From contig PLWQ01000019.1 of assembly GCA_003165595.1 (NCBI GenBank), forward strand, positions 61,399 through 125,398: 64,000 nt of DNA. The letters run 5' to 3'. The notes under the pieces were generated by a model, which saw only the letters and a list, made by a program, of their open reading frames with translations, made no database searches and was not told the DNA's origin. The stretch comes from Fibrobacterota bacterium (GTDB taxonomy: Bacteria; Fibrobacterota; Chitinivibrionia; Chitinivibrionales; FEN-1185). Below, one piece after another: positions 1,740 to 32,814 of the stretch (position 1 is its first letter; each line of letters begins with the position of its first letter). A program made the position numbers and the translations under genes.

Positions 1740-3746
1740 CTATTTCATTTCTAGCGGCTGCCACAACTGGCTGTAATTAAATAAATCGCGCGCCACCATC
1801 ATGTAGATAACAACTCGTTTCTTGTCGAGGTTGTTCTTGCGTGCGCGGTAGAATTTGTCGCGCACGAGCGGACCGCCGCCCCAACTTGTAACGATGTCGA
1901 GCGGAATGCCAGTATTGGCGGAGATGTGCGCGCCAACGCCGGCGGCTTTGCAATCGATAAGCTCGAACACGCCGGTAAAGCTGTCGCCGATGAGCATGAC
2001 GGGCGATTCCGGATTGGCGCCTTTGTACAGCGAACCATCCGGATTGTGCACCTGCTTCGCGGCGATTTCAACTGCCGGGAATGCTGTCTTGTCGGCTTCT
2101 GCGAGTTTGTCAACAAGATCACCCTGGCGCATGAACGATGTGTCTTTCACAGTGAAGGACACATCGTTTTTTGAAAGGCCCGGATACCACGAATATTGCC
2201 TGATGCGGTCGGCGATAAGCTTCGCGGCGATTTCGAGGCCGCGGTCGGTCCAGTGGGTGTCCTGTCGCTGGTACAACGCTTCCTTATTCTTTGGATCATC
2301 CTTCTTTGCCGCGAGAAAAGAGGGGAGGAGATCGACAACCTCCACGCCCGCGTTCTGCAGGTCGTGCAGGAACTTTCTAGCGTACGGATTGACAATTCCG
2401 TACTCATCCTTGGGCGGGTTGTCTACGGGCAGTTTGTCGAAGTAGACGTCGGATTTGTTTGGCACCGGGACAAAGAGAAGCGAAATGTTTTTGCTCTTGA
2501 GGAATTTTGCGAATTCAACGAGGTGCGGGATGGGGTTCTTGTCGGCCGCCTGCAGCGACATGTCGCCGCAATTGAGGTAGGACACTTCGCCGCGGAAGAA
2601 CAGCCAGTCGTTTTTACCCTTGAACCCCATTTGCTTTTCGGGCAGCGATTTCACGAAGGAGGCCGCAGCAAGCCGGAACGGCTCGTCTTTTTTCGCCCAG
2701 GACGCGTAATCGCCGAAGGTCTTGACTTCCGAATCGAACCGTGCATTGTTGTCCTTGAAGGCGGCCGAGACCGAAGCGTCGAACGGCACGGGCGGGGCCG
2801 TTTGCTGAGCCGCAGGCGCCGCGTTCACAGCGGGCTTCTCTTCCTTGAAATCAACAAGAAATACGTTGTAGAGGATGGTTCCGTAGGGATTGCCGCGAAT
2901 GACCACCAGGGGGTTTTTAGCCGTGTATCCCTTGAGTTCCCCGATCGCATCCTTGTCGGCGTCAGGCGTGGGCCATTGCGACTGGCCGGTAAGGTCCACC
3001 ACATCCGTGTTGAGCTTCGGGTACCAGTAGGAGGCAAGCAGGTTTGCCCAATCCACCACTTGGTCTTTTGTCAACACGGTTCTGGTATAGTCGTTGCGGA
3101 TCCAGTCGAACGCTTTTTGACGCAGTGTCTTGTCCACATTGTCCAATACAAGGCGGCCGTAGATCTCGTGAAAACCGTCTTTTGCCTCGTCGGGAATGCC
3201 CGGGTCCAGGAATTTGACCCAAGGCTTGAATTCGATCTTCACCCATACCTGCGTACTGTCGCCCCGGCCGTGCAGGTAGACGGCGGCGATCTCCTGATAG
3301 GCCATGAACACGTCTGGGTCGGCCCATTTTTCGCCGTTTATCTTTGCGCCCACCTTTGAGAAGGCATCGGATTTTGTGATTTCCCACAGCTTGTTTTGGA
3401 GCGGATCCCATGCCATCGGCATATCTTTTTCTGCGGCCGATAGAGGCGTTTGCGAAAGTGAAACGCACGCCGAAGCCAGCGCGCCGCCGAAGGTGAGGTT
3501 GGTGATGCCAACTTTCCTTGCAGGCTTTTTCGGCGTTACCGCCTGGTGATCGAACCGGATCGGGTTCGCCGTGTATGCCGCATAGTCGAGGTTCGCGAGC
3601 GTCGGCGTCGCGATTGTGCGGATCATGACGCGCGAGGTCACTCGATTGTAGTTCTTGAGTACGGTTTCAAACGGTGCAGCGGACAGCGAACCGAAGATAG
3701 CCGCACCTGCGGTGATAAGCGCGATTGCCTTGGCGTGTCGAATCAT
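1740..3746 (-). CDS. AlgJ/AlgX-like SGNH O-acetyltransferase, secreted, long N-terminal domain
   Basis: 668 residues. A signal peptide covers about residues 1-23. Residues 25-330 form a large N-terminal domain I do not recognise. The C-terminal half is an AlgJ/AlgX-type SGNH domain that opens with GKNDWLFFRGEVSYLN. It carries the paired acid-base motif QDTHWTDRG and the nucleophile motif LIGDSFTG. AlgJ/AlgX proteins move acetyl groups from the membrane MBOAT partner to an exopolysaccharide in the periplasm. The gene lies 15 bases downstream of a paralogue (3762-5402) and in the same operon as an MBOAT. The polymer acted on is unknown; no polymerase is in the window. Confidence 0.82.
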   Translation of the reverse strand: MIRHAKAIALITAGAAIFGSLSAAPFETVLKNYNRVTSRVMIRTIATPTLANLDYAAYTANPIRFDHQAVTPKKPARKVGITNLTFGGALASACVSLSQTPLSAAEKDMPMAWDPLQNKLWEITKSDAFSKVGAKINGEKWADPDVFMAYQEIAAVYLHGRGDSTQVWVKIEFKPWVKFLDPGIPDEAKDGFHEIYGRLVLDNVDKTLRQKAFDWIRNDYTRTVLTKDQVVDWANLLASYWYPKLNTDVVDLTGQSQWPTPDADKDAIGELKGYTAKNPLVVIRGNPYGTILYNVFLVDFKEEKPAVNAAPAAQQTAPPVPFDASVSAAFKDNNARFDSEVKTFGDYASWAKKDEPFRLAAASFVKSLPEKQMGFKGKNDWLFFRGEVSYLNCGDMSLQAADKNPIPHLVEFAKFLKSKNISLLFVPVPNKSDVYFDKLPVDNPPKDEYGIVNPYARKFLHDLQNAGVEVVDLLPSFLAAKKDDPKNKEALYQRQDTHWTDRGLEIAAKLIADRIRQYSWYPGLSKNDVSFTVKDTSFMRQGDLVDKLAEADKTAFPAVEIAAKQVHNPDGSLYKGANPESPVMLIGDSFTGVFELIDCKAAGVGAHISANTGIPLDIVTSWGGGPLVRDKFYRARKNNLDKKRVVIYMMVARDLFNYSQLWQPLEMK

Positions 3747-3761
3747 TAGGGGTGCCCTTTC

Positions 3762-5402
3762 TTACTGTTTTGATGCCACGGTGAGGGGAACGTCTTGCCA
3801 GCCTTCGTTTCCATATCTAAAATCGCGTTCGACGATTTCCCAGACAACAAGTTTCTTTCCCTTGAGCAGGCCGGGTTTTCGCGCCAGCGACTCGCGGACC
3901 AGCGTGGATGCGCCGCCATCGCTCACGATGGAGGTGATGGGCTGTTTGAGCTCCAGCGCGATGTGGGAAATCCATCCCGCCGATCTGGGCTCGTCGGACT
4001 GATAAATGCGCGAGTAGCTGTCGCCGAGGAGAACCACCTGCGCGTTCTTCGGATCGTCTTTGTAAAGGTGACGTTCCGTTTCGTTGCCTTTGTCGTCGCG
4101 TGCCACCTGATACACCTGATAACATTTCGTCCTTTCGGTGGGAAAACTGAGCGCAAGTTCGTGGACCTTTACGGACGGGAGCGTTGTCATAACGCCCACG
4201 TCGCCAACGCGGTCGATAAAAGTGGAATCGACAACATATTCCGTAGTTCCCGGGCGATACCACGAATACTGCTTGATGCGTTCGGCCACTACGTGGGCGG
4301 CGGTGCGGGCTCCGCGCGCGCGCCAGTGCGTGTCCTTCGACAGATACAGGGAATCGCCGGCGATTGAATCGTTTGCGCGTTCGGCGAGGAAGGGCGAGAA
4401 AAGATCGACCGCCTCGACGCCCGCGGCCCGCAGGTCGTTGATTGCTTTGAGCGAGTTGCCGCGGGTTGTCACCAGGCGCGGGTCTGCATTACCCGCCAGC
4501 ATGTCCGGATAAATGCTCGGCTTGCCGGGAATGATGGCAACCAGAAGATCGACGCCGAATTCGGCAAGCTGCTTCTTGAACGTGACCGCCGCTTGAATGG
4601 GGTTGTCGGAGACGACCTTGTCGTTCGGATCCACCTTGAGGGCGCGTTTGTCGAGCACGTAGGGGCGAATCAGATAATCGACATCCTGTTTGTAAAAGAA
4701 CCATCCGTTCTTGCCAAGCACGCCCTTTTCGCCCAGATCCCCGTATAGGGCATACTTGAGAAAAAACATCACGGGCCTGGTTGCTGTGGTGAAAATGGAG
4801 GTGTTTTCGATTTCCTTCTCGAATGGCCGCAGGTACTTAGCGTCCCAGAAGATAACGGGCAGGTTCTTAACAATAAGGACCAGGTCGTGTGCAGGCGCGG
4901 GTTTGCGGTACTGCGCCGCAAGCCGCCCGGTGGATTCCCGCAGAATGGCAATAAAGCGCAGAGCTGCCGGCCTGTCGCCGGCGCGGAGGTTTGCCATGAG
5001 AGAATCGAACGACTGCTGGTACAGGGCGATTGCAGCGACAGGTTTCGACGACTCCGCAGCCTTCACATGGCGGTTGTAGGTGAGCAACGTCTTATGGAGT
5101 TCGGCGGCGTCAACCATGGCTTCGTCGGTCTGGGCCTGCTGCCGCTGGGAATCCCGCGCACCGGTGGAATCCGCGGGAGCGGCCGCAATTTCGGCGGAGA
5201 TCGAATCGATCCTCGCGCCGATGCGGGCAATGAGGCTTCTTTCGATCGCGGCGCGTTTCACCGGCGTTAGGAACGTGTCTTCGATCAGATCGAGCACCTG
5301 GATGCGCTTGCCGCTTGTCACTTCGTAGATCGCCTGGGACACCGGAAGCGCAAATATGATAAACAGGAAGAACAGCGTGAAAATGAACTTTGATTTTTTC
5401 AT
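3762..5402 (-). CDS. AlgJ-like SGNH O-acetyltransferase, membrane-anchored
   Basis: 546 residues. An N-terminal hydrophobic segment (about residues 5-25) is probably an uncleaved anchor, with the rest in the periplasm. Residues 60-200 are helical and variable. The SGNH domain starts at GKNGWFFYKQDVDYLI and contains SKDTHWRARG and the nucleophile block LLGDSYSRIYQ. It parallels the downstream 668-residue protein motif for motif, down to a shared IKQYSWYRPG/IRQYSWYPGL stretch, so the two arose by duplication. With the upstream MBOAT it forms an AlgI-AlgJ-AlgX-like set that O-acetylates a cell-surface or secreted polymer. Confidence 0.82.
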   Translation of the reverse strand: MKKSKFIFTLFFLFIIFALPVSQAIYEVTSGKRIQVLDLIEDTFLTPVKRAAIERSLIARIGARIDSISAEIAAAPADSTGARDSQRQQAQTDEAMVDAAELHKTLLTYNRHVKAAESSKPVAAIALYQQSFDSLMANLRAGDRPAALRFIAILRESTGRLAAQYRKPAPAHDLVLIVKNLPVIFWDAKYLRPFEKEIENTSIFTTATRPVMFFLKYALYGDLGEKGVLGKNGWFFYKQDVDYLIRPYVLDKRALKVDPNDKVVSDNPIQAAVTFKKQLAEFGVDLLVAIIPGKPSIYPDMLAGNADPRLVTTRGNSLKAINDLRAAGVEAVDLFSPFLAERANDSIAGDSLYLSKDTHWRARGARTAAHVVAERIKQYSWYRPGTTEYVVDSTFIDRVGDVGVMTTLPSVKVHELALSFPTERTKCYQVYQVARDDKGNETERHLYKDDPKNAQVVLLGDSYSRIYQSDEPRSAGWISHIALELKQPITSIVSDGGASTLVRESLARKPGLLKGKKLVVWEIVERDFRYGNEGWQDVPLTVASKQ

Positions 5403-5539
5403 GTCGTTTGTATCTCCGGCTTAAATCCTTCGCCCGATGCAATCGGCGAAGATAGTGAAATATTCGGACGCAAAATTTGAAATCGGTTTGTCATTTTCCT
5501 GAAATCCCGGTTATCGGTCTTCCATCCTGAAACTCCCGG

Positions 5540-6970
5540 TCAGAACTGGAAGTAAAGAAACGGGCTGAACGACTGTGTAAACATGCCGAGAATCGCATAC
5601 AGAAAGAGCGCGCCGCACAGCGCGAGCTTGACTGGGGTCATGCCTTTGCCTACCCAGTCGTATGCCTGCACGGGCTGCCAGACGAAGACTGCGCATATCG
5701 CCATCTCGCAAAGGTGGCGCATGGAAAAGATCTGAGCCGTAAGCAGCGGGGCGGAGGCCGAGCCATGGATGATGCCGATCATCGCGCCCCAGTACAGGAC
5801 TGCCTGGTGCAACGTGGGAGCACGGAACACTACCCAGCCGAACAGGACTATTACAAACGTTATGGCGACCTGCAGCCAGGATGGAGCCCGGGAATATATC
5901 GTCTTCTTACCCTGAATGCGTTCTATGATGAGAAATGCGCCCTGATACAGGCCCCAGACGATAAAGGCCATGCTCGCGCCGTGCCAGAGACCGCACAGGA
6001 AAAAGGTAAGCGCGAGGTTGAAATAGGTACGCAACGTTCCTTTCCGGTTGCCGCCAAGCAGCGCAATATACAAATAATCCATGATAAATGATGAAAGAGA
6101 GATGTGCCATCTTTTCCAGAAGATGGAAATGCTCTTTGAAAGATACGGCGCGCTGAAGTTTTTGATAAATTCGATGCCCAGCATACGAGCCAGGCCCACT
6201 GCCATGTCCGAATACCCGCAGAAGTCAAAGTAGATCTGGAACGAATAGGCGAGAACGCCCCACCAGGCGTTGAGCATGCCCGGCGCGTCCGCGCCGAACG
6301 CGGCGTCGGCGATGCCTGCCGACGGGTCGGCCAGCAGAATCTTCTTTGCGAATCCCAGGATAAAGATTGCCGTGCCGCTGGTGAACTTGTCCACCGAATG
6401 CTCGCGTTCCATAAGCTGGTCGGCCACGGTCTGATACCGGATGATGGGGCCGGCAATAAGGTGGGGATACAGCCCGAGGAAGCACGAGAACGCGCCAAAC
6501 GAGGGCGCCTGTTTTGCATCGCCTCTGTAAACGTCGATCACGTACGAGAGCGCCACGAAGGTGTAGAACGATATGCCCGAGGGCAAAAGGACCTGCAGAA
6601 TGTGGAAGGTGTGCGTTGGCCCGCCGCACACGTGAAGAAGCCCGTTGACGCCGCCCATGAAGAACATGTAGTACTTGAAGAAACCGAGCAGCGCCAAGTC
6701 GGTGACAATCGCGAAGACAAGCGCGAATTTGCGCTGTTTCTGCGCAATGCCCGGCTTTACAATTACCTGTGCGCACAGATAGTCTTTATAGGAGGTTATG
6801 AACAGAAGTAGGGTAAACCACGGAACGAGCCAGCCGTAAAAGACATAGCTCATCACCGTAATCCAGATGTTCCGGACGTACATTCCCTTCCATTTGAACG
6901 GAAGCAGGAAATAGACCGTCAAGAAGAACGGAAGAAAATAGAATAGAAATATCTGTGATGAAAAAACCAT
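5540..6970 (-). CDS. MBOAT family O-acyltransferase (AlgI-like)
   Basis: 476 residues, polytopic inner-membrane protein with roughly ten hydrophobic segments. It shows the hallmarks of the AlgI/DltB branch: VIDVYRGDAKQAP, the LYPHLIAGPIIRY block, the ISIFWKRWHISLS motif and the catalytic-His motif CGLWHGASMAF. These proteins pass an acetyl group from a cytoplasmic donor across the membrane to periplasmic SGNH transferases, here probably the two encoded just downstream. Family assignment is firm; the glycan substrate is not visible. Length is close to AlgI. Confidence 0.92.
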   Translation of the reverse strand: MVFSSQIFLFYFLPFFLTVYFLLPFKWKGMYVRNIWITVMSYVFYGWLVPWFTLLLFITSYKDYLCAQVIVKPGIAQKQRKFALVFAIVTDLALLGFFKYYMFFMGGVNGLLHVCGGPTHTFHILQVLLPSGISFYTFVALSYVIDVYRGDAKQAPSFGAFSCFLGLYPHLIAGPIIRYQTVADQLMEREHSVDKFTSGTAIFILGFAKKILLADPSAGIADAAFGADAPGMLNAWWGVLAYSFQIYFDFCGYSDMAVGLARMLGIEFIKNFSAPYLSKSISIFWKRWHISLSSFIMDYLYIALLGGNRKGTLRTYFNLALTFFLCGLWHGASMAFIVWGLYQGAFLIIERIQGKKTIYSRAPSWLQVAITFVIVLFGWVVFRAPTLHQAVLYWGAMIGIIHGSASAPLLTAQIFSMRHLCEMAICAVFVWQPVQAYDWVGKGMTPVKLALCGALFLYAILGMFTQSFSPFLYFQF

Positions 6971-22047: not shown

Positions 22048-22530
22048 CTAAAGTGATGCCCGCGAATCAAACGACGTCTTCTTGAACTCCTTCACCGTCG
22101 GCAACACGAGCATGTCTTTGCCTTGCACCGCAGCTTTCAAGCTCGCAATATTCCGCTTCAACTCCGTCTTGCTTTTGGCGTGAACCATGGCATACAGGGT
22201 GTACGGCCAGTCGGGATACGATTTCCGCCAATAGCAGTGTGTGACAAACGGGAAAGCGGCGGCCGCGGCCCCGGCCTTTTTGCACAAACGCGGCGGTACA
22301 AGGAAGGCCACCATGGCGTTGCTGCGAAACCCTGCCTTGTCATGTTTGAGAATGCCGGCGACACGCCGCACCACGCCACGGCGGATGAGGCCGGCCAGCG
22401 CATCAACCACGCCCTGCTGCGACATTCCGAGACGCTCCGCCGCAACCGCGAAGGGCTCGGCCGCAAGCGGCAGCGGCGCGGAAAGCACAGACGCAAGCAA
22501 ACGTTCGGCTTTCCGTGCCCTTCTAGACAT
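22048..22530 (-). CDS. ahbB: siroheme decarboxylase subunit AhbB
   Basis: 160 residues of the AsnC/Lrp-like NirDL/AhbAB family. An N-terminal helix-turn-helix-like part (AERLGMSQQGVVDALAGL) is followed by a ligand domain carrying the AhbB signature FVTHCYWRKSYPDWPYTLYAMVH. Together with AhbA it removes two carboxyl groups from siroheme to give 12,18-didecarboxysiroheme. The HTH part is a relic of the fold and need not bind DNA. Last gene of the operon, overlapping ahbA by eight bases. Confidence 0.9.
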   Translation of the reverse strand: MSRRARKAERLLASVLSAPLPLAAEPFAVAAERLGMSQQGVVDALAGLIRRGVVRRVAGILKHDKAGFRSNAMVAFLVPPRLCKKAGAAAAAFPFVTHCYWRKSYPDWPYTLYAMVHAKSKTELKRNIASLKAAVQGKDMLVLPTVKEFKKTSFDSRASL

Positions 22531-22969
22531 CCAGCACCAATCCTATTTTGTAAATTGCAAGGCTCGGAAATTTCCGGCATCGTTTCACGCCTGGAAGTGC
22601 CCGGACGGCTTTGACAAAGTGAGACGCATCGCGTTTGCTTTCGCAGGTGAAGGTAAACCAGAGATTAAGCGGCCCCTTGCGAAGATAGTTGTGCGTGACG
22701 CCCGGGGCTCGGCCAACAACGTCCGCAACGGCGGTCACGCTTGAATCGTCCACTTCCATTCCCACAAGAACGCTTTCGAAGCCGAGTTTCTTCCACGCAA
22801 AGACCGGTTTGATTGCGCGGAGGATGCCGCGCTCGGTAAGCGCTCCGAGCAAACTGATGCAGCGTTTCTCGGAAATGCCGAGCCGTTTTCCGAGAGAGCG
22901 AAACGGCCGGATCTGGAGCGGAAAGTCCTTTTGCACTTCATTGAGCAGGCGGCGTTCGAGAGGCGTCAT
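22523..22969 (-). CDS. ahbA: siroheme decarboxylase subunit AhbA
   Basis: 148 residues, paralogue of AhbB. The family signature is GVTHNYLRKGPLNLWFTFTC, where the His and Tyr are the residues expected in the siroheme site, and GVKRCRKFPSLAIYKIG closes the domain. It forms the decarboxylase with AhbB. Start and stop overlap both neighbours (ATGA with cobA-hemD, eight bases with ahbB). Confidence 0.9.
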   Translation of the reverse strand: MTPLERRLLNEVQKDFPLQIRPFRSLGKRLGISEKRCISLLGALTERGILRAIKPVFAWKKLGFESVLVGMEVDDSSVTAVADVVGRAPGVTHNYLRKGPLNLWFTFTCESKRDASHFVKAVRALPGVKRCRKFPSLAIYKIGLVLDV

Positions 22970-24465
22970 CGTGATTCTCCGCGCCTTGTTCTGCGTACTG
23001 CTTTCACAACCGTGGCGACCAGCGACTTCATGGTGGCCGAAGGCGCCACAAACATGCGTCCGCGATAATGGCGGCGAAGCGTTGCGGCGGTAATATGGCC
23101 CAGACAGCAGGGAACTATTCGAACCCTGGAGCGTTGTTTGTCGGAGTAGTACGATTCCACCATCGACGAACTGGTGAACAGTACAACATCATCGTTTTGC
23201 ACCGGGCACTGCGGTGCGGCAACCCTTATGGTATCGTACAGTGGAAGTATTGTCACGGCTGCTCCACGGCGCCGCAGGGTTTCCGGCAGGATCTCGCGGG
23301 CAGCGGAAGCCCGGGGAATCAGAATATTCTCATTGCGCAAGTCTTTTGGAAAGACGGCCAGCAGTCCTTCGGCAACAAATCGCCGGGGAACGGCGTCGGG
23401 AACAATACCGAAGCGGCCGAGGGCCGCCGCAGTGCCGCTTCCTATCGCGTAGACCCGTTTGCCCGCAAACAAGCGGGAGTCGTGGCCTTTTCCGAAAAGC
23501 GCGCGGAAGAAGATATCGACCGCGTTGGGGCTTGTAAAGGCAATGGAAGTAAAAGGAGCCAGCCACAGCTTGTCGATGCGTCCAAGCGAAGCGGAACGCG
23601 GCCGGATGGCAATAAGCGGACGTTGTACCACCGTGGCGCCCAGCTCCGTTAGCAGACCCGTGATTTCGGCTGATTGCCCGGAGGTGCGGAGAACCACGAC
23701 ACGCTTTCCCGCCAAAGGCGGCGTTTTGTACCACGAAAGTGATTTTGCAAGCCGCACTACGTTGCCCACCACGAGAATCGCGGGCGGACGGATTTGGTGC
23801 GAGTCTCGAAGCGCGACCATCCTGCCGAGCGTTCCCGAAACCGTCTTCTGTACGGGCAGGGTTCCGTCTTGAATGATCGCTGCGGGGGTCGCCTGTGTAA
23901 ACTGGCCGCCGGCAAGCATGGCGGCCACAATTTTCTCAAGGTTCTCCATGGCCATGAGAAACACGAGCGTGTCGGCCCTGGGAATTGCGAGCGAGGCTAT
24001 TGAATCGCCGCTCTTGAGGTGCCCGGTGACAAATGCGACCGAGCGGGACACGCTTCGGTGGGTTACCGGGATTCCGGCAAAGGCGGGCGCGGCAATGGCC
24101 GACGTAATGCCGGGGACTATTTCAAAGGGTATGGCACGGGTGCGGAGAAATTCCATTTCTTCGCTTCCGCGGCCAAAAAGGAGCGGGTCGCCGCCCTTGA
24201 GACGTGCCACGCGCAGGCCTCTTGTGGCTTCACGCTCAAGAATCCTGTTGATGGCATCCTGCGTTTTGGACGGTTTTCCGCCGCGTTTGCCGGCAAAAAT
24301 GCGCCGTACCGCAGAGGGGAGCGAATCAACGATCTGCGTGTTTACAAGCGCGTCGTACACCACGACGTCGGCTTTTAGAAGCAGATCGCGGCCGCGGACC
24401 GAAATGAGGCCGGGGTCGCCCGGCCCTGCGCCGATGAGATACACGGTGCCACGCTGTTTCTTCAC
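22966..24465 (-). CDS. cobA-hemD: fused uroporphyrinogen-III C-methyltransferase / uroporphyrinogen-III synthase
   Basis: 499 residues in two domains. Residues 1-245 are the SAM-dependent CobA/SUMT domain: YLIGAGPGDPGLISVRG, RLKGGDPLLFGRG, VPGITSAIAAPAFAGIPVTH. Residues 250-490 are HemD: RVVVLRTSGQ, IAFTSPNAVDIFF and VLFTSSSMVESYY. One chain thus closes hydroxymethylbilane to uroporphyrinogen III and methylates it twice to precorrin-2. Such fusions are common in anaerobes that make heme or B12 through precorrin-2. Coupled by ATGA to sirC upstream and ahbA downstream. Confidence 0.95.
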   Translation of the reverse strand: MKKQRGTVYLIGAGPGDPGLISVRGRDLLLKADVVVYDALVNTQIVDSLPSAVRRIFAGKRGGKPSKTQDAINRILEREATRGLRVARLKGGDPLLFGRGSEEMEFLRTRAIPFEIVPGITSAIAAPAFAGIPVTHRSVSRSVAFVTGHLKSGDSIASLAIPRADTLVFLMAMENLEKIVAAMLAGGQFTQATPAAIIQDGTLPVQKTVSGTLGRMVALRDSHQIRPPAILVVGNVVRLAKSLSWYKTPPLAGKRVVVLRTSGQSAEITGLLTELGATVVQRPLIAIRPRSASLGRIDKLWLAPFTSIAFTSPNAVDIFFRALFGKGHDSRLFAGKRVYAIGSGTAAALGRFGIVPDAVPRRFVAEGLLAVFPKDLRNENILIPRASAAREILPETLRRRGAAVTILPLYDTIRVAAPQCPVQNDDVVLFTSSSMVESYYSDKQRSRVRIVPCCLGHITAATLRRHYRGRMFVAPSATMKSLVATVVKAVRRTRRGESR

Positions 24466-25112
24466 GAATTGCCCCGGCCGTCCAGTAATGATTCCATGAG
24501 ATCGAGTCCCAGTGCCTCCACGTGGGCAGCGCCGCGATCACCGACAAGCGCGACCGGATCAACCGCGAAGAAGGATTCCCAGAACCTGGCGCGGACGCCG
24601 GGCTCCTTGATCCGCCGCCGCAGGGCGACGCGCAGGCGCGAGAGAACGGCTCCGAGAGCGCCGTACTCGGGGCCGATGTTCTCGGCGATCCGCTTGCGGA
24701 TCGCGCGGGCAAGAAAGGGGCTCGCTCCGCCGGTGGAAACCGCAATGCTCACGGGCCCGCGGCGAAGCACTGAGGGGACAATAAACCCGCACAGCTCCGG
24801 ATTGTCTACAATGTTGCACAATACCCGCGCCTCGGCGCACGCGGCTGCAATAGCCATGTTGACATCGAGGGAATCGGTTGCGCCGATGACAAGGGCGAAT
24901 TCCCGAACAACGTCGCCTTCTGCGAAGCACCGCTCCAGGCAGCATACGCGCTCCCCGAGCATCGTGAATCTCGGAATGAACCGCTTGGCAATAACGGTGA
25001 CTTTGGCGCCGGCGCGCAGAAGGCCGACGACTTTACGGAATGCGACCCTGCCGCCGCCCACCACGAGGCAGGGTTTGCTGGCGAGATCGATTGAAATGGA
25101 GTAGTAGGGCAT
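24462..25112 (-). CDS. sirC: precorrin-2 dehydrogenase / sirohydrochlorin synthase
   Basis: 216 residues, like the N-terminal half of CysG and Met8. NAD-binding motif CLVVGGGRVAFRKVVGLLRAGAKVTV, Asp in GATDSLDVNMAIA (catalytic Asp position of Met8/CysG) and FIVPSVLRRGPVSIAVSTGGASPFLARAIR. It oxidises precorrin-2 to sirohydrochlorin. Members of this family can also insert iron; no separate CbiK/CbiX-type chelatase is in the window, so this protein may do both steps (inference). Two bases after hemC. Confidence 0.92.
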   Translation of the reverse strand: MPYYSISIDLASKPCLVVGGGRVAFRKVVGLLRAGAKVTVIAKRFIPRFTMLGERVCCLERCFAEGDVVREFALVIGATDSLDVNMAIAAACAEARVLCNIVDNPELCGFIVPSVLRRGPVSIAVSTGGASPFLARAIRKRIAENIGPEYGALGAVLSRLRVALRRRIKEPGVRARFWESFFAVDPVALVGDRGAAHVEALGLDLMESLLDGRGNS

Positions 25113-25114
25113 AG

Positions 25115-26041
25115 TCAGGTTTCCGGTGCCGACAAGAACATCGCGCCCAGCCGTGCGCCCACAGACGAAGGATCGTCCGCACTTCCACGCATCTCTCGCT
25201 CGACAAAGGCGTTGCCGGACGTTGTGACGATAAATCCACGCATGAGAATATCGTTTCCGGCCAGCGTGGTATGCACGCCGAGCGGCGCGCGGCAGTCGAA
25301 TCCCACTGCGCGCAGCAGGCCGAGATCGGCGAGCGATCTGGTCCGCTGGTCGGGGTCGCCTGCGGCCTCGCAGGCCGCCTGCGACCTCCGGTCGCCGCTA
25401 CGGATTTCCAGTGCAATCACACCCTGCCCCGGCGCGGGATAAAAGACCGCCGGGTCGAATTCGTGCGAGACCCGGTGGTCCAGGTTGAGCCGGATGAGGC
25501 CGGCCTTCGAAAGGAGAACGCCATGGTATAGGCCGCTGTCGAGTTTTGCGAGTCGCGTCTCCACATTCCCGCGAATATCTCTGATGTCAAGATCGGGGCG
25601 AAGCCGTGTGAGCAGGGCTCGCCGCCGCATGCTGCCGGTGCCGATAAGAGCGCCGCGCGGAAGCGCGGCGAAAGTAAAACCTTCGCGGAGCACCAGAGCG
25701 TCGGCCTGCGATTCGGGGGAGAAGAAGGCGCAGAGCTGGAGCCCCGGGGCGGTTGCGGCGGTGACGTCTTTGAAACTGTGGACGGCAACGTCTATGGTAG
25801 TATCGAACAATGCCTGTTCAATCTCGCGGATAAAAACGCCCTTGCCGCCCATTACCAAAAGGGAACTGTGCTGGTCGCGGTCGCCGGCGGTTGCGATAAC
25901 GCGTGTTTCGATAGTGAGGGAGGGGTTTGCCTTCTCAAGCCGTTGCCTCGCAATGTCGGCCTGGGCGCGCGCCAAAGCGGAGCCCCGCGTTCCCAGTATT
26001 ACGGTGCTTCGCAAACCAGCCTCGTTTTTACGTTGTACCAT
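25115..26041 (-). CDS. hemC: hydroxymethylbilane synthase (porphobilinogen deaminase)
   Basis: 308 residues, full length. ILGTRGSALARAQADI, VHSFKDV, the Arg block IGTGSMRRRALL and IRGNVETRLAKLD are present. The dipyrromethane-binding Cys is in VGFDCRAPLG. It polymerises four porphobilinogens. The ATG overlaps hemA by 43 bases; a TTG at 26014, nine codons in and preceded by GAGG at good spacing, is an equally good start and gives the more usual N-terminus. Confidence 0.95.
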   Translation of the reverse strand: MVQRKNEAGLRSTVILGTRGSALARAQADIARQRLEKANPSLTIETRVIATAGDRDQHSSLLVMGGKGVFIREIEQALFDTTIDVAVHSFKDVTAATAPGLQLCAFFSPESQADALVLREGFTFAALPRGALIGTGSMRRRALLTRLRPDLDIRDIRGNVETRLAKLDSGLYHGVLLSKAGLIRLNLDHRVSHEFDPAVFYPAPGQGVIALEIRSGDRRSQAACEAAGDPDQRTRSLADLGLLRAVGFDCRAPLGVHTTLAGNDILMRGFIVTTSGNAFVEREMRGSADDPSSVGARLGAMFLSAPET

Positions 26042-27075
26042 TTTGTGAATTTGTCCGCCTGTTCTTCGATAATCGCCGAAATAAGGTCCATGTCTTTCCT
26101 TCGATCGGCAAGACGTCGCTGTGAAATTTCCTTGAGATCGTCCACGCACACCAGCGTTACGCCGGGCGCCGCGCCGATGGCAGGGTCGGCGTTCCTCGGC
26201 GCCCCGAGATCGACGACCACCATCCGCCGCGCATTGTCCCGGTCATTCGGAATGTTGTCCCGAGAGACAATAGGGCTCTTGGAAGCGGTCGCGAGAATGA
26301 CGATGTCGAATGCCGCAAAGCGGTTGCGCAACTCGGAATAGGGGAGAAAATGGAGGCCGAAATGCCCGCAATATTTTTGCGCCCGCTCGTTTGTGCGGTT
26401 GGCAAGCGTGAGGGAGTGTGCGCCGGCAGACGTGAGCCGCTTGACAGCCCGGATTCCCATTGTGCCTGCGCCCACCACAAGGATGTCCGAGTTGTCAATG
26501 TTACCGCACAGTTCCAGGATGCGCTCGATGGCAATCGACCCCACCGACAGCGCACCGCGCCCGGCGCTTGTAAGCGCCCGCACTTTTTTTCCGGTTGCAA
26601 CGGCGTGCTGGAACAATCTGTTGAGATAGGAATCGGTAGTCTTGTTCCGGTAGCACTGGTGGTACGCATCGCGGACCTGTCCGAGAATCTCGTGTTCGCC
26701 GAACACCATGGATTCGGTTCCCGACACCACCTGCAGGAGGTGTCGTACCGCCTCGGCGCACCGGTACTCTTTGAAGGCGCGGTCGAGGTGGGAACGCGGA
26801 ACGCCATGGAACTTGACAAGATGATCGCGCAACCATGATGAGGCCGCGGCATGATCGTCGCACACGTAATAAATTTCTATTCGATTGCAGGTCGACAGCG
26901 CAACGACTTCGCGGAGAGGGGAGTCTTTGGGCAACGAGTTGAAGAATGCGACCAGTTTCTCGTTGTCGAGGTACAGCGCGTCGCGCATGCTCAGCGATGC
27001 CGACTTGAAGTCGGTGCCGAGAGCGCCGACGTGCAGTTGCGTTGTGGTACTGTGCGGATGCGTCATGAGAGACAT
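25999..27075 (-). CDS. hemA: glutamyl-tRNA reductase
   Basis: 358 residues. The catalytic Cys is in ALSTCNRIEIYY, followed by GTESMVFGEHEILGQVRDAY and the NADPH motif VVGAGTMGIRAVKRL. It reduces glutamyl-tRNA to glutamate-1-semialdehyde, the entry step of tetrapyrrole synthesis in the C5 pathway. It is about 60 residues shorter than most family members: the chain stops soon after VVDLGAPRNADPAI plus one helix, so most of the C-terminal dimerisation domain is missing. It overlaps hemL upstream (13 bases) and hemC downstream. Confidence 0.93.
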   Translation of the reverse strand: MSLMTHPHSTTTQLHVGALGTDFKSASLSMRDALYLDNEKLVAFFNSLPKDSPLREVVALSTCNRIEIYYVCDDHAAASSWLRDHLVKFHGVPRSHLDRAFKEYRCAEAVRHLLQVVSGTESMVFGEHEILGQVRDAYHQCYRNKTTDSYLNRLFQHAVATGKKVRALTSAGRGALSVGSIAIERILELCGNIDNSDILVVGAGTMGIRAVKRLTSAGAHSLTLANRTNERAQKYCGHFGLHFLPYSELRNRFAAFDIVILATASKSPIVSRDNIPNDRDNARRMVVVDLGAPRNADPAIGAAPGVTLVCVDDLKEISQRRLADRRKDMDLISAIIEEQADKFTKWYNVKTRLVCEAP

Positions 27076-28355
27076 CCCAACGCTTGTTTGCTTTTGGCGA
27101 GCGCGATGTCGATGTCTTCATCGGTATGGGCCGAGGAGACGAACAGCGCCTCGAACTGCGAGGGCGCAAGGTAGATGCCGCGGTCGAGCGATGCGTGAAA
27201 GTACCGCGCGTAGGCCTGCCGGTCGCACGCGAGAGCCGAGTTGTAGTCGAAAACGGGGCTGCCGTTTGAAAAGAACAGCGTCAGCATCGATCCGACACGG
27301 TTGACAACCGCTTTTATGCCCGTGTCCCGGCAGTTCTTCTCCAGCCCCGCAGCCAGACGCGCGGCGAGCCGGTCGAGTCTTTCGTAAAACCCCGGGTCGC
27401 GGCGGATGATGCGAAGCGTGGCGAGCCCTGCCGCGACAGCGAGGGGATTGCCCGAAAGCGTGCCCGCCTGGTACACCGCGCCCGCGGGAGCGACATAACG
27501 CATTATTTCCTGCGACGCGCCATAGGCGCCCACGGGCAGGCCGCCGCCAATGGTTTTGCCGAGCGTCGTGATATCGGGTGTGCAATTGTAAAGTTGCTGT
27601 GCGCCGCCGGCCGAGAGCCGGAATCCGGTTATCACTTCGTCGAAAATAAGCAACGATCCGTGTTTACGGGTGATATCGCGCAATGCGGGGAGGAATCCCG
27701 GCGCCGGAGGGACAACGCCCATGTTGCCCGCGACAGGCTCCACGATCACCGCGGCAATGGACGGTCCGCGCTCGGCAAACAGATTGTCGACCGATTTGAT
27801 GTTATTGTACTGCGCAACCAGGGTGTCGGCCGCCGTTCCCCTGGTGACTCCGGGGCTGTCGGGCGCACCGAGCGTTGCGGCGCCGGACCCCGCCGCAATG
27901 AGAAACGAATCCGCGTGACCGTGGTAACAACCGGCAAACTTGATAATTGCGCTTCTGCCGGTAATCCCGCGGGCAAGCCGGACCGCGCTCATGGTCGCCT
28001 CGGTGCCGGAATTAACGAGCCGCACCATTTTAACGGACGGGACCAGGGCGACGATTTCCCGTGCAAGCTCCGTTTCCGCCTCGGTGGGTGCGCCGAAGGT
28101 GGTGCCGCGGCGCGCGGCCGCGACGACAGCCTCCACAACCTCCGGGGGGGCGTGTCCGGCGATAAGCGGTCCCCACGAACCCACGAAATCGAGGTAGCGG
28201 TTGCCGTCGAGGTCGGTAAGAAAGGCTCCCTTGCCGGATGCGAAGAATACCGGGGTGCCGCCGACGCCGCCGAATGCGCGCACGGGCGAGTTTACCCCGC
28301 CGGGAATGCAGCGCTGCGCGGCCGCAAAGGCGCTATCGCTTCTTTGACGTTGCAA
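27063..28355 (-). CDS. hemL: glutamate-1-semialdehyde 2,1-aminomutase
   Basis: 430 residues from a TTG start; this codon follows GGAAGGG at eight bases and lies just before SDSAFAAAQRCIPGGVNSPVRAF, the normal N-terminus. No ATG is available there. PLP lysine in TTLGKTIGGGLPVGAYG; FDEVITGFR and VNSGTEATMSAVRLARG are family motifs. It makes 5-aminolevulinate. Overlaps ahbD by 23 bases. Confidence 0.95.
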   Translation of the reverse strand: MQRQRSDSAFAAAQRCIPGGVNSPVRAFGGVGGTPVFFASGKGAFLTDLDGNRYLDFVGSWGPLIAGHAPPEVVEAVVAAARRGTTFGAPTEAETELAREIVALVPSVKMVRLVNSGTEATMSAVRLARGITGRSAIIKFAGCYHGHADSFLIAAGSGAATLGAPDSPGVTRGTAADTLVAQYNNIKSVDNLFAERGPSIAAVIVEPVAGNMGVVPPAPGFLPALRDITRKHGSLLIFDEVITGFRLSAGGAQQLYNCTPDITTLGKTIGGGLPVGAYGASQEIMRYVAPAGAVYQAGTLSGNPLAVAAGLATLRIIRRDPGFYERLDRLAARLAAGLEKNCRDTGIKAVVNRVGSMLTLFFSNGSPVFDYNSALACDRQAYARYFHASLDRGIYLAPSQFEALFVSSAHTDEDIDIALAKSKQALGCLS

Positions 28356-29442
28356 GGCGTTTCCCTTCCGCTCGCGCCGATGGTTGATATACGCAGAATG
28401 GTTCGTCGCCCAGGTAGTCGCCCGAAGAGGCGAATGCGCGCGCGCGGCATCCGCCGCATACCGCATGATATTCGCATCGGCCGCATTTGCCGTGATACGA
28501 TTGACGGTCGCGAATACTCGCAAAGAGTTCCGACGTCTCCCATATGGTCTTTACATCGTAGTCGTTGGCGCGAAGGTCGCCGGCTTCCTTGTCGAGAAAC
28601 CCGCATATCTGCATCTTGCCGACATGCGAAATAAAGGCGAAACCGTGCCCTCCCAGGCATCCTCGTGTCATGGCGTTTATCGGATGCGTCACTCCCGGCG
28701 CAATTTTTGCGGAAACGGTGCGCCGGGCCTGGCGCATGATTCGATGATAGTGAGGCGCACAGGTAGGCTTGATGGAGATGGGCGTGACGGCGGCCTTCTC
28801 GTTGATCCAAGCCAGCGTCTGTTCGTACTGTAAGGGCGTTATCGATTCGGCCTCCATATCCTTGCCGCGTCCGGTTGGGACCAGCAGGAAGGGATGAAAC
28901 GACACGGCGCCCAGTTGAATGGACAAATCGAGAATAGCCGGAAGCTCCGCGAGATTCCGGCTGGTGACGGTGGTATTCACCTGGAACGAAAGCCCGGCGA
29001 CCCGTGCCGCGGCAAGGCCCTTCTTGAGCGTGTCGAAGGCGCCGTCCATGCCGCGGAAGGAATCATGCGATGCGGCGGTGGCGCCGTCGATGCTCACGCT
29101 GATCCGCTGTATGCCGGCTTCCACGATGCGGCCGCACGCATCTGCCGTGAGAAGGAGTCCGCACGGCGCCATCACCATGCGAGCGCCCAGCCCGCTTCCC
29201 AGCCGCGCGATACGGTAGATGTCGGGACGAAGCATTGGCTCGCCGCCGGTGAGGATCACTATCGGCTTTGCAAAGGATACAATCGACAGCAGGATCCGCT
29301 CGCATTCCTCGGTGGAGAGTTCATGAGGGTACGGGCCGGCCTGCGCCGATGCGCGGCAATGACGGCAATGCAACAGGCACGATCGCGTGAGCTCCCATGC
29401 AACCAGCCGCAGGGGAGGGGGCGTCGGGGCGCGGTGAATCAC
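28333..29442 (-). CDS. ahbD: radical SAM heme b synthase AhbD
   Basis: 369 residues. The N-terminal motif LRLVAWELTRSCLLHCRHCRA supplies the SAM cluster CxxxCxxC. The C-terminal SPASM-like part has CGF...CGRCEYHAVCGGCRAR for auxiliary clusters. PLRLVAWE-type starts are characteristic of AhbD, which decarboxylates the two propionates of iron-coproporphyrin III to vinyl groups, the last step of the siroheme route to heme b. Distinguished from AhbC by its N-terminus and by the presence of a clear AhbC in the same operon. ATGA overlap with hemB. Confidence 0.9.
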   Translation of the reverse strand: MIHRAPTPPPLRLVAWELTRSCLLHCRHCRASAQAGPYPHELSTEECERILLSIVSFAKPIVILTGGEPMLRPDIYRIARLGSGLGARMVMAPCGLLLTADACGRIVEAGIQRISVSIDGATAASHDSFRGMDGAFDTLKKGLAAARVAGLSFQVNTTVTSRNLAELPAILDLSIQLGAVSFHPFLLVPTGRGKDMEAESITPLQYEQTLAWINEKAAVTPISIKPTCAPHYHRIMRQARRTVSAKIAPGVTHPINAMTRGCLGGHGFAFISHVGKMQICGFLDKEAGDLRANDYDVKTIWETSELFASIRDRQSYHGKCGRCEYHAVCGGCRARAFASSGDYLGDEPFCVYQPSARAEGKRLATSKKR

Positions 29443-30425
29443 AGTGCGCCCGCTTTGGAAAGGATACGGGCGGCTTCGAGCGCGTGGTAGGTGATGATGA
29501 TGTCCGCCCCGGCGCGTTGCATGGAGGTCAGGATTTCCATCACGAGCCGGTCTTCGTCTATCCAGCCCCGCGCCGCGGCGGCCTTTACCATGGAGAATTC
29601 TCCGCTCACGTTATAGGCGGCCACGGGAACGCCGAATGTGTCCTTAACGCGGCGCACAATATCGAGGTAGGCCAGCGCCGGCTTTATCATCACGATGTCG
29701 GCCCCCTCCGAAATATCAAGCTCGACCTCGCGTAGCGCCTCGTTGGAATTGGCCGGGTTCATCTGATAGGTGGCGCGGTCGCCGCTTTTGGGAGCGCAAT
29801 CGGCCGCGTCGCGGAACGGGCCGTAAAACGCGGATGCGTATTTCGCCGAATACGCCATTATCGGCAGGTTTGTGTAGCCGCCCGCGTCAAGCGCGCCGCG
29901 GATCGCGCCCACCCGGCCGTCCATCATGTCGCTGGGCGCAACCATGTCGGCGCCTGCTGCCGCGTGCGACAATGCCTGCCTGGCCAGCACGGAGAGCGTG
30001 AGATCGTTGTCCACGTCGCCGCCGGTAAGCGGGCCGCAATGGCCGTGGGTGGTGTATTCGCAGTTGCACACGTCCGTAATCACGAGCAGCCGGGGCACCG
30101 CCGCTTTTATGGCCCGTACCGCCTGCTGCACTACGCCGTCTTCCCGCGCGCCGATCTCGCCGGTTTCGTCTTTACGGTCGGGAATTCCAAACAGAATTAC
30201 CGCGCCGATCCCGGCGCCGGCAATGCGCTTGCATTCTTCCACGAGGCAGTCCTGCGAGAAACGGAAATTGCCGGGCATCGAGTCTATCGGGATTTTTTTC
30301 CCCGTGCCCGTGCAGGCAAACAGCGGCATCACAAGCCGTTGCGGGCAAAGACGGGTCTCCTGCACGAGGCTCCGAAGCGCCGGGCTGGCGCGAAGTCGCC
30401 GCATACGTGTTTGTGGAAAGGACAT
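29439..30425 (-). CDS. hemB: porphobilinogen synthase (5-aminolevulinate dehydratase)
   Basis: 328 residues, full length. Zinc-type active site: the three Cys of DVCNCEYTTHGHCG. The two catalytic lysines are in IMAYSAKYASAFYGPFRDA and MIKPALAYLDIV. It condenses two 5-aminolevulinates. The start is the ATG 14 bases after the ahbC stop, just before SFPQTRMRRLRAS, the standard beginning. Overlaps ahbD by four bases. Confidence 0.96.
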   Translation of the reverse strand: MSFPQTRMRRLRASPALRSLVQETRLCPQRLVMPLFACTGTGKKIPIDSMPGNFRFSQDCLVEECKRIAGAGIGAVILFGIPDRKDETGEIGAREDGVVQQAVRAIKAAVPRLLVITDVCNCEYTTHGHCGPLTGGDVDNDLTLSVLARQALSHAAAGADMVAPSDMMDGRVGAIRGALDAGGYTNLPIMAYSAKYASAFYGPFRDAADCAPKSGDRATYQMNPANSNEALREVELDISEGADIVMIKPALAYLDIVRRVKDTFGVPVAAYNVSGEFSMVKAAAARGWIDEDRLVMEILTSMQRAGADIIITYHALEAARILSKAGAL

Positions 30426-30439
30426 GAACACTCCTCGCG

Positions 30440-31627
30440 CTACGGTTGGTTTGCAATTTCGTCTTCGGTAAGGTAACACGCGGGATCTTCGGCCCACACA
30501 TCGCTGTGCACCGCCTCTGCCCTTTCGCGGAGGTTGCCGTTGCAGATGTCTTTCCATGCGCACCGGCCGCATTTCCCGGTAAGCAATTGTTTACGGTTGC
30601 GAAGATTCGCAAGAAGCCGGTCTCCTCCCGAGGCCCAGAGCTCGCTAAAAGGCCGGGTACGAACGTTGCCGACGCTGTAGTGGCGCCAGAACTGGTCCGG
30701 ATGCACGGTGCCGTCCCAGCTGACGCAACCGATGCCATGTCCGGTGCTGTTGCCGCCGTTCATTCGCAGGAGGCGCAGCACGTCCGCGGCGCGTTGCGGC
30801 TGTTCTTTGAGCAACCTCAGGTAGAGATACACGCCGTCGGCGTGGTTGTCCACCGTGAGCACCTCGGCGGGAATTCCTTTTTTGTGAAGCGCGGCCGTTC
30901 TCTCCACAATGAGGTCCACGGTGGCGCGGGTGGCGGCTGCATCGAGGTCTTCTTCAACGAGCTCGGTTGCGCGGCCGGTGTAGACCAGATGGTAAAAGCA
31001 GATTCGGGGAATTCCCTCTTTTTCAAGAAGGTCGAACACGCCGGGAATTTCTTCGACGTTGATCCGGTTGACGGTAAAGCGGAGGCCCACCTTGACGCCT
31101 GCCTTCCGGCAGGCCCGGATGCCCGCGAGCGCGCGTGCGTATGCGCCGGAGACGCCGCGGAACCGGTCGTGGACGGCTTCCAGGCCGTCGATGCTGATGC
31201 CCACGTAGGAAAGTCCGGCATCGCGAAACGATGCGGCACGTTCGTCGGTGATGAGTGTTCCGTTGGTGGAAATCACGGCGCGAATGCCGCGTTTGCGGGC
31301 TGCCGCAACCAGCGTGAGCAGATCGTCCCTCAAAAGGGGCTCGCCGCCCGAAAAGAGCAGCACCGGCACCCCGAAAGCGGCGAGGTCGTCGATGAGGGCA
31401 AGGCCCTCGGGGGTGGTAAGTTCGCCCTTGTAATCCAGGTCGGCCGATTGTGAATAGCAGTGGATGCAACGGAGGTTGCACCGCCGCGTCACGTTCCACA
31501 CCACCACCGGCTTCTTGTCTTTTGAGAACTGAAGAAGGTGGGAGGGAAGTTTGCCTGAGTCACGGTCGTACCTGAGCGCATCGGACGACTCGACCGTGCC
31601 GCAGTAGAGCTTGGAAATTCCTATCAT
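30440..31627 (-). CDS. ahbC: radical SAM 12,18-didecarboxysiroheme deacetylase AhbC
   Basis: 395 residues. It starts with MIGISKLYCGTVESSDALRY and LPSHLLQFSKDKKPVVVWN, the typical AhbC opening, then the SAM cluster CNLRCIHCYS and LLFSGGEPLLRDDL. C-terminal SPASM-type cysteines: CVSWDGTVHPDQFW, CGRCAWKDICNGN and a last Cys near DPACYL. It removes the two acetate side chains of didecarboxysiroheme to give iron-coproporphyrin III. First gene of the ten-gene heme operon. Confidence 0.92.
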   Translation of the reverse strand: MIGISKLYCGTVESSDALRYDRDSGKLPSHLLQFSKDKKPVVVWNVTRRCNLRCIHCYSQSADLDYKGELTTPEGLALIDDLAAFGVPVLLFSGGEPLLRDDLLTLVAAARKRGIRAVISTNGTLITDERAASFRDAGLSYVGISIDGLEAVHDRFRGVSGAYARALAGIRACRKAGVKVGLRFTVNRINVEEIPGVFDLLEKEGIPRICFYHLVYTGRATELVEEDLDAAATRATVDLIVERTAALHKKGIPAEVLTVDNHADGVYLYLRLLKEQPQRAADVLRLLRMNGGNSTGHGIGCVSWDGTVHPDQFWRHYSVGNVRTRPFSELWASGGDRLLANLRNRKQLLTGKCGRCAWKDICNGNLRERAEAVHSDVWAEDPACYLTEDEIANQP

Positions 31628-31920
31628 GCTTCGATCGCTTTCGATAAACCGGAATGCACGTTCCAATAGATCGATGCAGTCCGAGGCAAGCCAGGGGGTA
31701 GTCTTGCCGTGGACATCAGGGTTGTAATATGCTGGTAATATAATTCCCGTTCCCCGGGATTATTCCGGAGCAACGATGGAATTATGCGTCTGCGGCGAAG
31801 TCCAGTGCGCCCCAGCGCTCTATTCCTTTCGAGCGCCGCAGGAATATAGTATTTTTCGATAGGGTGTTGGATTCGTGCGTCGGGCAATCCATTGACAAGA
31901 AGAAAAGAAGGATACTCCGG
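31628..31920. promoter_or_regulatory. divergent intergenic region of ahbC and metA
   Basis: 293 bases that must hold the promoter of the minus-strand heme operon and that of plus-strand metA. On the plus strand TTCCTT and TATAGT stand 16 bases apart near 31824-31851, a weak candidate for metA. An AT-rich stretch TAATATGCTGGTAATATAATT near 31730-31750 may contain the heme-operon -10. No strong consensus and no riboswitch is recognised. Confidence 0.35.
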
Positions 31921-32814
31921 ATGACCATCGTTCTACCAAAGGACTACCATGCGAAGCAGGAGCTTCAGAAGCGCCGCGTACTGGTAATCGATCAGGACAA
32001 TGCTCTCAAGGAAGACATTCGCGCCTTGCGGATTGGCGTGCTCAACATCATGCCGCAAGCGGAGCGGTACGAGCTGAGTCTGCTGGCCCCGCTCGGCAGA
32101 TCGGTGCTGCAGATTGAACCCATTTGGATTCGCCTGGAAACCCACAAGTACACCAGCACCGACCAATCGCATCTCGACAAGCTGTATGTAACGTTCGAGG
32201 AGGCCGTATCACACCAGAAGCTCGACGGGCTCATCGTCACGGGCGCGCCTGTGGAGGAGATTCCCTTTGAGCAAGTTACCTATTGGGAGGAGATCCTTCG
32301 CATCCTCAGGTACGCACATCGCAACGCTGCCTCGACGCTGGGATTGTGCTGGGGCGCCCTTGCCATCGCAAAATTCCTGGGCATGGAGAAGGAAATATTT
32401 CCGAAAAAGCTTTTCGGCGTGTTTGAAACGGTCAACCTTGACCGCAGCCACCGGGTAACAGGCGATATGGACGACGTGTTCTGGTGCCCGCAAAGCAGGC
32501 ATTCAGGAATTCCCGACGCGGTGCTGGAAGAACAGCGCGACAAGGGGAAGATCCGCCTTCTCGCATATTCGAAAGACGCGGGGTACGTTATTTTCGAAAG
32601 CGCCGACCAGCGGTTTCTCATGCACCTTGGCCATCTGGAATACGAGCCGTCGCGGCTCGTCGAAGAATACAAACGGGACCTCGCGGCCGGCAAAAAGAAC
32701 GTCGAGGCGCCAAAGAACGTCAACCTTGAGGCTCCGGTTAATGTCTGGCGCGCCCATGGAAACGAATTTTTTTCCCAATGGATCAAGTTCGTCCACGAAT
32801 CAACACAATACTAG
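31921..32814 (+). CDS. metA: homoserine O-acetyltransferase, MetA type
   Basis: 297 residues, the MetA fold related to glutamine amidotransferases. LRIGVLNIMPQAERYE opens the domain. The nucleophile Cys is in TLGLCWGALAIAKF, followed by PQSRHSGIP and the late His-x-Glu of LMHLGHLEYEP. In GAPVEEIPFEQVTYW the position that sets acyl-donor choice carries Glu, which in studied MetA proteins marks acetyl-CoA rather than succinyl-CoA users. It activates homoserine for methionine synthesis. A GAAGG site precedes the ATG. Next to a serine acetyltransferase gene, so both sulfur amino acid entry steps lie together. Confidence 0.92.
   Translation: MTIVLPKDYHAKQELQKRRVLVIDQDNALKEDIRALRIGVLNIMPQAERYELSLLAPLGRSVLQIEPIWIRLETHKYTSTDQSHLDKLYVTFEEAVSHQKLDGLIVTGAPVEEIPFEQVTYWEEILRILRYAHRNAASTLGLCWGALAIAKFLGMEKEIFPKKLFGVFETVNLDRSHRVTGDMDDVFWCPQSRHSGIPDAVLEEQRDKGKIRLLAYSKDAGYVIFESADQRFLMHLGHLEYEPSRLVEEYKRDLAAGKKNVEAPKNVNLEAPVNVWRAHGNEFFSQWIKFVHESTQY

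Follow-up and report, generated by a model that had tools for sequence, protein, structure and literature searches.

Organisation of the heme gene cluster

The window analysed here, a 64,000-nucleotide stretch of contig PLWQ01000019.1 from the draft genome of a bacterium of the phylum Fibrobacterota, houses on its minus strand a compact operon predicted to direct the synthesis of heme b by way of siroheme, through the so-called Ahb route. Ten open reading frames (ORFs) follow one another from position 31627 down to 22048, all of them in frame, and profile family scans assigned a family to each (10/10), which bears out the order, strand and, with one qualification discussed below, the names given to these genes in an original prediction made from the letters alone. 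In order of transcription, and preceded by the intergenic region from which they would be expressed, the features are as follows (SAM, S-adenosylmethionine).

31628..31863, no strand assigned: intergenic region upstream of ahbC, the presumed promoter region, shared with a divergent gene for homoserine O-succinyltransferase (31864-32814, plus strand)
30440..31627, minus strand: ahbC, 12,18-didecarboxysiroheme deacetylase (radical SAM/SPASM); ATG start; TIGR04546, 675 bits against a cut-off of 650; CNLRCIHC motif
29439..30425, minus strand: hemB, porphobilinogen synthase; NF006762, 498 bits
28333..29442, minus strand: ahbD, heme synthase (radical SAM/SPASM); GTG start; TIGR04545, 457 bits against a cut-off of 500
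27063..28355, minus strand: hemL, glutamate-1-semialdehyde aminomutase; TTG start at 28355; TIGR00713, 604 bits
25999..27075, minus strand: hemA, glutamyl-tRNA reductase of 358 amino acids; TIGR01035, 294 bits; catalytic STCNR kept
25115..26014, minus strand: hemC, hydroxymethylbilane synthase; TTG start at 26014 (alternative ATG at 26041); TIGR00212, 277 bits
24462..25112, minus strand: 'sirC', CysG-N-type precorrin-2 dehydrogenase; TIGR01470, 161 bits, and CysG_dimeriser
22966..24465, minus strand: cobA-hemD fusion, uroporphyrinogen-III C-methyltransferase and uroporphyrinogen-III synthase; GTG start; TIGR01469, 270 bits, and PF02602, 148 bits
22523..22969, minus strand: ahbA, siroheme decarboxylase subunit alpha; NF040708, 139 bits against a cut-off of 140 (1.4 under); HXYXR motif present as HNYLR
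22048..22530, minus strand: ahbB, siroheme decarboxylase subunit beta; NF040707, 150 bits against a cut-off of 125; HXYXR motif present as HCYWR

Given the TTG starts of hemL and hemC, successive genes share no more than 23 bases and lie at most 14 bases apart, with 4-base overlaps at three of the junctions, and on these starts the predicted limit of 25 bases for every overlap or gap holds. If hemC were to start at ATG 26041 instead, it would overlap hemA by 43 bases. An arrangement of this kind for ten genes is far beyond chance, and because the genes are so tightly packed it suggests a single transcript with translational coupling. No convincing promoter was recognised in the region upstream of ahbC, the promoter and terminator scans yielding matches at about the level of chance, and no riboswitch was found by Rfam within the window.

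Assignment of the Ahb pathway

Roles in heme biosynthesis can be allocated to all ten gene products, as activities predicted from their sequences. HemA and HemL would together produce 5-aminolevulinate, which HemB, HemC and HemD would convert into uroporphyrinogen III and CobA into precorrin-2; the CysG-N-type protein would then oxidise precorrin-2 and probably also insert iron, the product being siroheme. AhbA and AhbB are proposed to remove two of the acetate carboxyl groups, after which AhbC would strip off both acetate side chains that are left, yielding iron-coproporphyrin III, and AhbD would form the two vinyl groups of heme b.

The siroheme-dependent nature of the pathway, as originally predicted, is borne out by the family matches and by closer inspection of the Ahb proteins themselves. 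Both putative decarboxylase subunits carry the HXYXR motif known to be conserved in siroheme decarboxylase (PMC4145669), and when they were compared with the solved Desulfovibrio enzyme (4czd), AhbA matched chain A in preference to chain B, and AhbB matched chain B in preference to chain A. In AhbC, an alignment showed that the N-terminus MIGISKLYCG is kept among relatives. For AhbD the top-scoring family was TIGR04545 (heme b synthase), 131 bits ahead of the next, and a motif scan located the radical-SAM signature CX3CX2C together with eight SPASM cysteines at slightly relaxed spacing, in keeping with the C-terminal cysteine motif expected of AhbD.

The proteins AhbA/B, AhbC and AhbD are homologous to NirDL/GH and NirJ of heme d1 biosynthesis, and siroheme is a common intermediate of both pathways, so that the operon might in part serve another tetrapyrrole, either heme d1, made with NirJ-type radical SAM proteins, or siroheme and cobalamin only. 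The identity of AhbC as a NirJ or heme d1 protein was rejected, however, both by its scores (421 bits for NirJ, where the cut-off is 515) and by phylogeny: the window AhbC falls among the AhbC proteins of its own order, while NirJ from three alphaproteobacterial plasmids forms a separate and well-supported clade (100/100). The family placement of AhbD likewise speaks for heme b, which must in any case be needed because machinery for c-type cytochromes is encoded. Taken with the placement of AhbC, these observations make an alternative tetrapyrrole product most improbable.

Iron insertion deserves separate mention. The protein named 'sirC' in the original prediction is closest to the N-terminal module of the bifunctional enzyme CysG: among structures in the PDB its best match was CysG 1pjq (127 bits), against 60 bits for SirC 3dfz and 29 bits for Met8p, so that its identification as a stand-alone SirC, acting as a dehydrogenase only, was discarded. 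It keeps an aspartate equivalent to D104 of CysG and contains the CysG dimerisation region. Modules of the CysG-N type can, according to the literature, carry out both dehydrogenation and chelation, and no CbiX or CbiK chelatase was found in the window's own genome or in most of the relatives that bear Ahb genes. Given this likeness and the lack of a detectable CbiX or CbiK, the CysG-N-type protein is probably also the sirohydrochlorin ferrochelatase. The claim that every step is encoded within the operon is therefore sound as regards the presence of genes for CobA and the CysG-N-type protein; for the insertion of iron it becomes a probable one, drawn from similarity to CysG.

The glutamyl-tRNA reductase is also unusual. 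The match of HemA to TIGR01035 covers positions 3-334 of 416, ending ahead of the C-terminal dimerisation domain, and GlutR_dimer gave no match in this protein, which thus lacks the dimerisation domain of a canonical glutamyl-tRNA reductase. The same shortening is seen in four relatives with the operon form called type A below, whose HemA proteins are 342-349 amino acids long. NCBIfam contains one model of a short, chlamydial glutamyl-tRNA reductase, NF001909 (338 positions), so that there is a precedent for the short form of HemA.

A single detectable route to heme

The original prediction had noted that hemE, hemN, hemH and genes of the coproheme route are missing from the window, and had proposed looking for a second heme pathway elsewhere. 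The search was run on the whole of the host genome (5.39 Mb in 42 contigs, 98% complete), and the absence extends to that scale: hemE (TIGR01464), hemH and ChdC/HemQ were not found there by profile search, and neither was a true hemN, the one weak match to the HemN family scoring 114 bits (cut-off 325) and being the size of HemW. The same heme-gene searches did give matches in control genomes such as those of E. coli and B. subtilis, with hemN above cut-off in three. Genes hemF, hemG and hemY were not searched for; alone they could give no classical route, since neither hemE nor hemH was found.

It is thus very probable that this single operon specifies the whole of the Ahb route, starting at glutamyl-tRNA and ending in heme b, and that it is the sole detectable source of heme in its host. 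That the same ten genes remain clustered among relatives counts in favour of this interpretation. Several points weigh against it: AhbD and AhbA score slightly under the curated cut-offs for their families; the host genome is a draft, at the completeness given above; the activity of a HemA without its dimerisation domain is an assumption; and the role of the CysG-N-type protein as chelatase is drawn from its likeness to CysG, so that some other chelatase could exist.

Distribution and two types of operon

AhbC was sought in 41 genomes, comprising the window's own and 40 relatives. It was present in 17 of these, as a full-length protein in 14 and as a fragment at the edge of a contig in three (G002, G015 and G029), and the neighbouring operon genes usually accompany it. 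In G040, a more distantly related member of the phylum, the match is of the NirJ1 type. Beyond the phylum, clusters holding the majority or the full set of these genes are found in metagenome-assembled genomes (MAGs) of KSB1 (L080), Kiritimatiellota (L033), Lentisphaerota/Lentisphaerae (L038) and Hydrogenedentota/Hydrogenedentes (L109), and many Desulfobacterota keep ahbC, hemB and ahbD together.

Within the order the operon exists in two forms. In type A, found in the window and in G026, G027, G029 and G037, the genes run ahbC-hemB-ahbD-hemL-hemA-hemC-sirC-cobA-hemD-ahbA-ahbB; AhbA and AhbB are two proteins, and HemA has 342-358 amino acids. The AhbC proteins of G031 and G039 group with this type. 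Type B, found in G002, G011, G021, G022, G025, G028 and G030, has a full-length HemA (407-425 amino acids where intact) whose gene is located ahead of the others, and AhbA and AhbB are often a single protein of 320-347 amino acids. Such AhbA-AhbB fusions are known from the literature in archaea, outside the methanogens. The lack of the HemA dimerisation domain is common to every type A operon with a readable hemA.

Two other relatives stand apart. The genome G001, from the window's genus, yielded no AhbC, hemE or hemH, although a cytochrome c assembly gene is present; it also encodes a radical SAM protein resembling NirJ2 and AhbD (L027:9976-11016, on G001:C52). In G011 the genes hemQ-hemE-hemH-hemY lie at L112:6744-10911 (G011:C99:40744-44911; also L015), about 6 kb from the Ahb operon of that genome, both on a single contig of 96 kb; NrfA is encoded on the contig that carries both heme loci, and cytochrome bd elsewhere in the genome.

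Conflict between operon types and species phylogeny

The distribution of the two types does not follow the relationships of their hosts. In a tree of RpoB, family f3 forms one clade, and the window's genome and G001 (family f1) pair outside it. In the tree of CobA-HemD the window instead joins the type A genomes of f3 (100/100), and G002, which belongs to the window's family, joins G030 of f3 (100/100), a pairing that recurs for hemC with support of 95; in the AhbC, HemC and SirC trees G002 likewise groups with G030 or its neighbours. G002 is a fragmented draft (79%) whose contig is only 3.6 kb, so that misbinning is possible, but the result for f3 is independent of it. Forced monophyly of f3 or of f1 was rejected by the approximately unbiased (AU) test, with p-AU of 2e-61 and 5e-155 respectively for CobA-HemD, and 4e-4 and 1e-5 for HemC. 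This conflict of the operon types with both the RpoB tree and the family assignments indicates that the operon was either exchanged or replaced, or else that an ancient duplication was followed by loss.

If both types had been present in the ancestor of the order and were differentially lost, no transfer would be required. The long and evidently old branch of type A (1.19 in the CobA-HemD tree, support 100/100) would fit such a history, and no donor has been identified; yet none of the genomes was seen to carry the two types together, parallel losses would have to be numerous, and the tight pairing of G002 with G030 across families is more simply accounted for by transfer. Ancient duplication is accordingly rather unlikely, though it deserves to be kept in mind.

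Transfer into the window's genome from sulfate reducers or archaea was also considered, as the pathway was described from these organisms and the order ahbC-hemB-ahbD is common to the window and Desulfobacterota. In an AhbC tree of 93 rows, however, the window lies with its own order, adjoining Planctomycetota and Kiritimatiellota/Lentisphaerota, while archaeal AhbC forms a starred clade of its own and the Desulfobacterales a separate group, and the same gene set is spread across the order. A recent import of the operon from either source is unsupported by this tree, and an origin by lateral gain from them is very unlikely. The suggestion in the original prediction that the operon points to lateral spread can be retained for movement between families of the order, as seen in the conflict of the trees, and not for recent arrival from sulfate reducers or archaea.

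It is tempting to propose, as a tentative reading whose chances we would put at somewhat below even, that the operon is an exchangeable cassette for a whole pathway, in which type A, with its short HemA and its divergent HemC and CobA-HemD, has replaced type B or been exchanged with it between families; the direction of any such transfer would be conjectural. The same tentative reading has the cassette supplying, in the present host, all the heme of an oxygen-reducing aa3-type oxidase, so that it must either work in oxygen or be shielded from it.

Heme-requiring proteins and oxygen

Heme from the operon would be supplied to c-type cytochromes, matured by CcsBA, and to cytochrome c oxidase. An operon for the latter lies elsewhere in the host genome (L176:593-5152; G000:C37:300593-305152) and encodes COX1, COX2 with a cytochrome c domain, COX3, COX4 and Sco1; COX1 scores 641 bits for CtaD/CoxA, where the cut-off is 671, and the oxidase is predicted to be of the aa3 type. 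About 6.5 kb away is a gene for a diheme peroxidase of the MauG/CCP type. CcsBA is encoded on contig 8, and within the 0.9 Mb of the genome in which cytochromes were counted there are two c-type multiheme cytochromes, one with 11 CXXCH motifs (L192:16619-17599) and one with 5 (L175:7094-7876). Searches for cytochrome bd, NrfA and cytochrome b (PF00033) gave no match in the host genome, and none of the three is among its heme users. A Rieske gene near the oxidase was examined as part of an alternative complex III and rejected, its neighbours belonging to an efflux system. An anaerobic lifestyle, which the original prediction had offered as one explanation of the operon, is weakened by the presence of COX1-4 with Sco1 and of the diheme peroxidase: since the predicted oxidase would reduce oxygen, a strictly anaerobic life is doubtful. 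Oxygen reductases occur alongside Ahb heme in Desulfovibrio vulgaris as well, and this combination may therefore not be unique.

Comparison with known systems

In reviews, archaea and sulfate reducers are the groups credited with making heme from siroheme. Past uroporphyrinogen III, the window encodes the same enzyme families as the Ahb pathway of Desulfovibrio vulgaris, D. desulfuricans and Methanosarcina barkeri (PMC3942049, PMC4145669, PMC7242693), with an AhbD of the same eight-cysteine SPASM type and, as in Desulfovibrio and methanogens, separate AhbA and AhbB; it differs in its Fibrobacterota host, in having ten genes in one operon, in its CysG-N-type dehydrogenase with CbiK/CbiX not found, and in its short HemA. 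The most complete archaeal case is Pyrobaculum aerophilum, where 10 of 11 candidate heme genes form one large uninterrupted cluster (PMC3004389, 2010) which, like the window, contains hem genes and genes for uroporphyrinogen methyltransferase, precorrin-2 dehydrogenase and Ahb proteins. Apart from their hosts, archaeal clusters differ from the window in that AhbA and AhbB are fused outside the methanogens and in that a ferrochelatase gene was not identified (PMC3004389). The type B operons and the clusters of KSB1, Kiritimatiellota, Lentisphaerota and Hydrogenedentota specify the window's pathway with nearly the same gene set, but in another gene order, with full-length HemA and with AhbA-AhbB often as one protein. 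Since it is found across the order, in MAGs of other phyla and in P. aerophilum, a whole-pathway Ahb cluster is not unprecedented, and the original view of it as exceptional outside sulfate reducers and archaea does not stand.

Haloferax volcanii has both Ahb and ChdC routes, ahbD being used for anaerobic and pitA for aerobic growth (PMC5746218). It thus resembles G011, whose genome also combines the Ahb route with an end route linked to oxygen, although G011 has hemQ-hemE-hemH-hemY and Haloferax lacks hemE and a ferrochelatase; the window's genome has Ahb only.

The Ahb pathway itself being already known, this case draws its interest from the swapping of two operon types, from the shortened glutamyl-tRNA reductase and from the presence of an oxidase in the same host. 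In the genomes examined, Ahb is the sole heme route across much of a Fibrobacterota order, and full clusters occur in several other phyla, so that pathway calls made from hemE, hemN and hemH alone would mislabel such bacteria as heme auxotrophs. The operon is also a compact, ten-gene source from which the complete route could be rebuilt, and its occurrence with a predicted aa3-type oxidase makes it possible to ask, in a bacterium, how heme synthesis by radical-SAM enzymes withstands oxygen.

Other features of the window

Distant from the heme operon, at 1740-6970, the window contains a row of alginate-type acetylation genes, encoding two AlgX-like proteins and an MBOAT acyltransferase.

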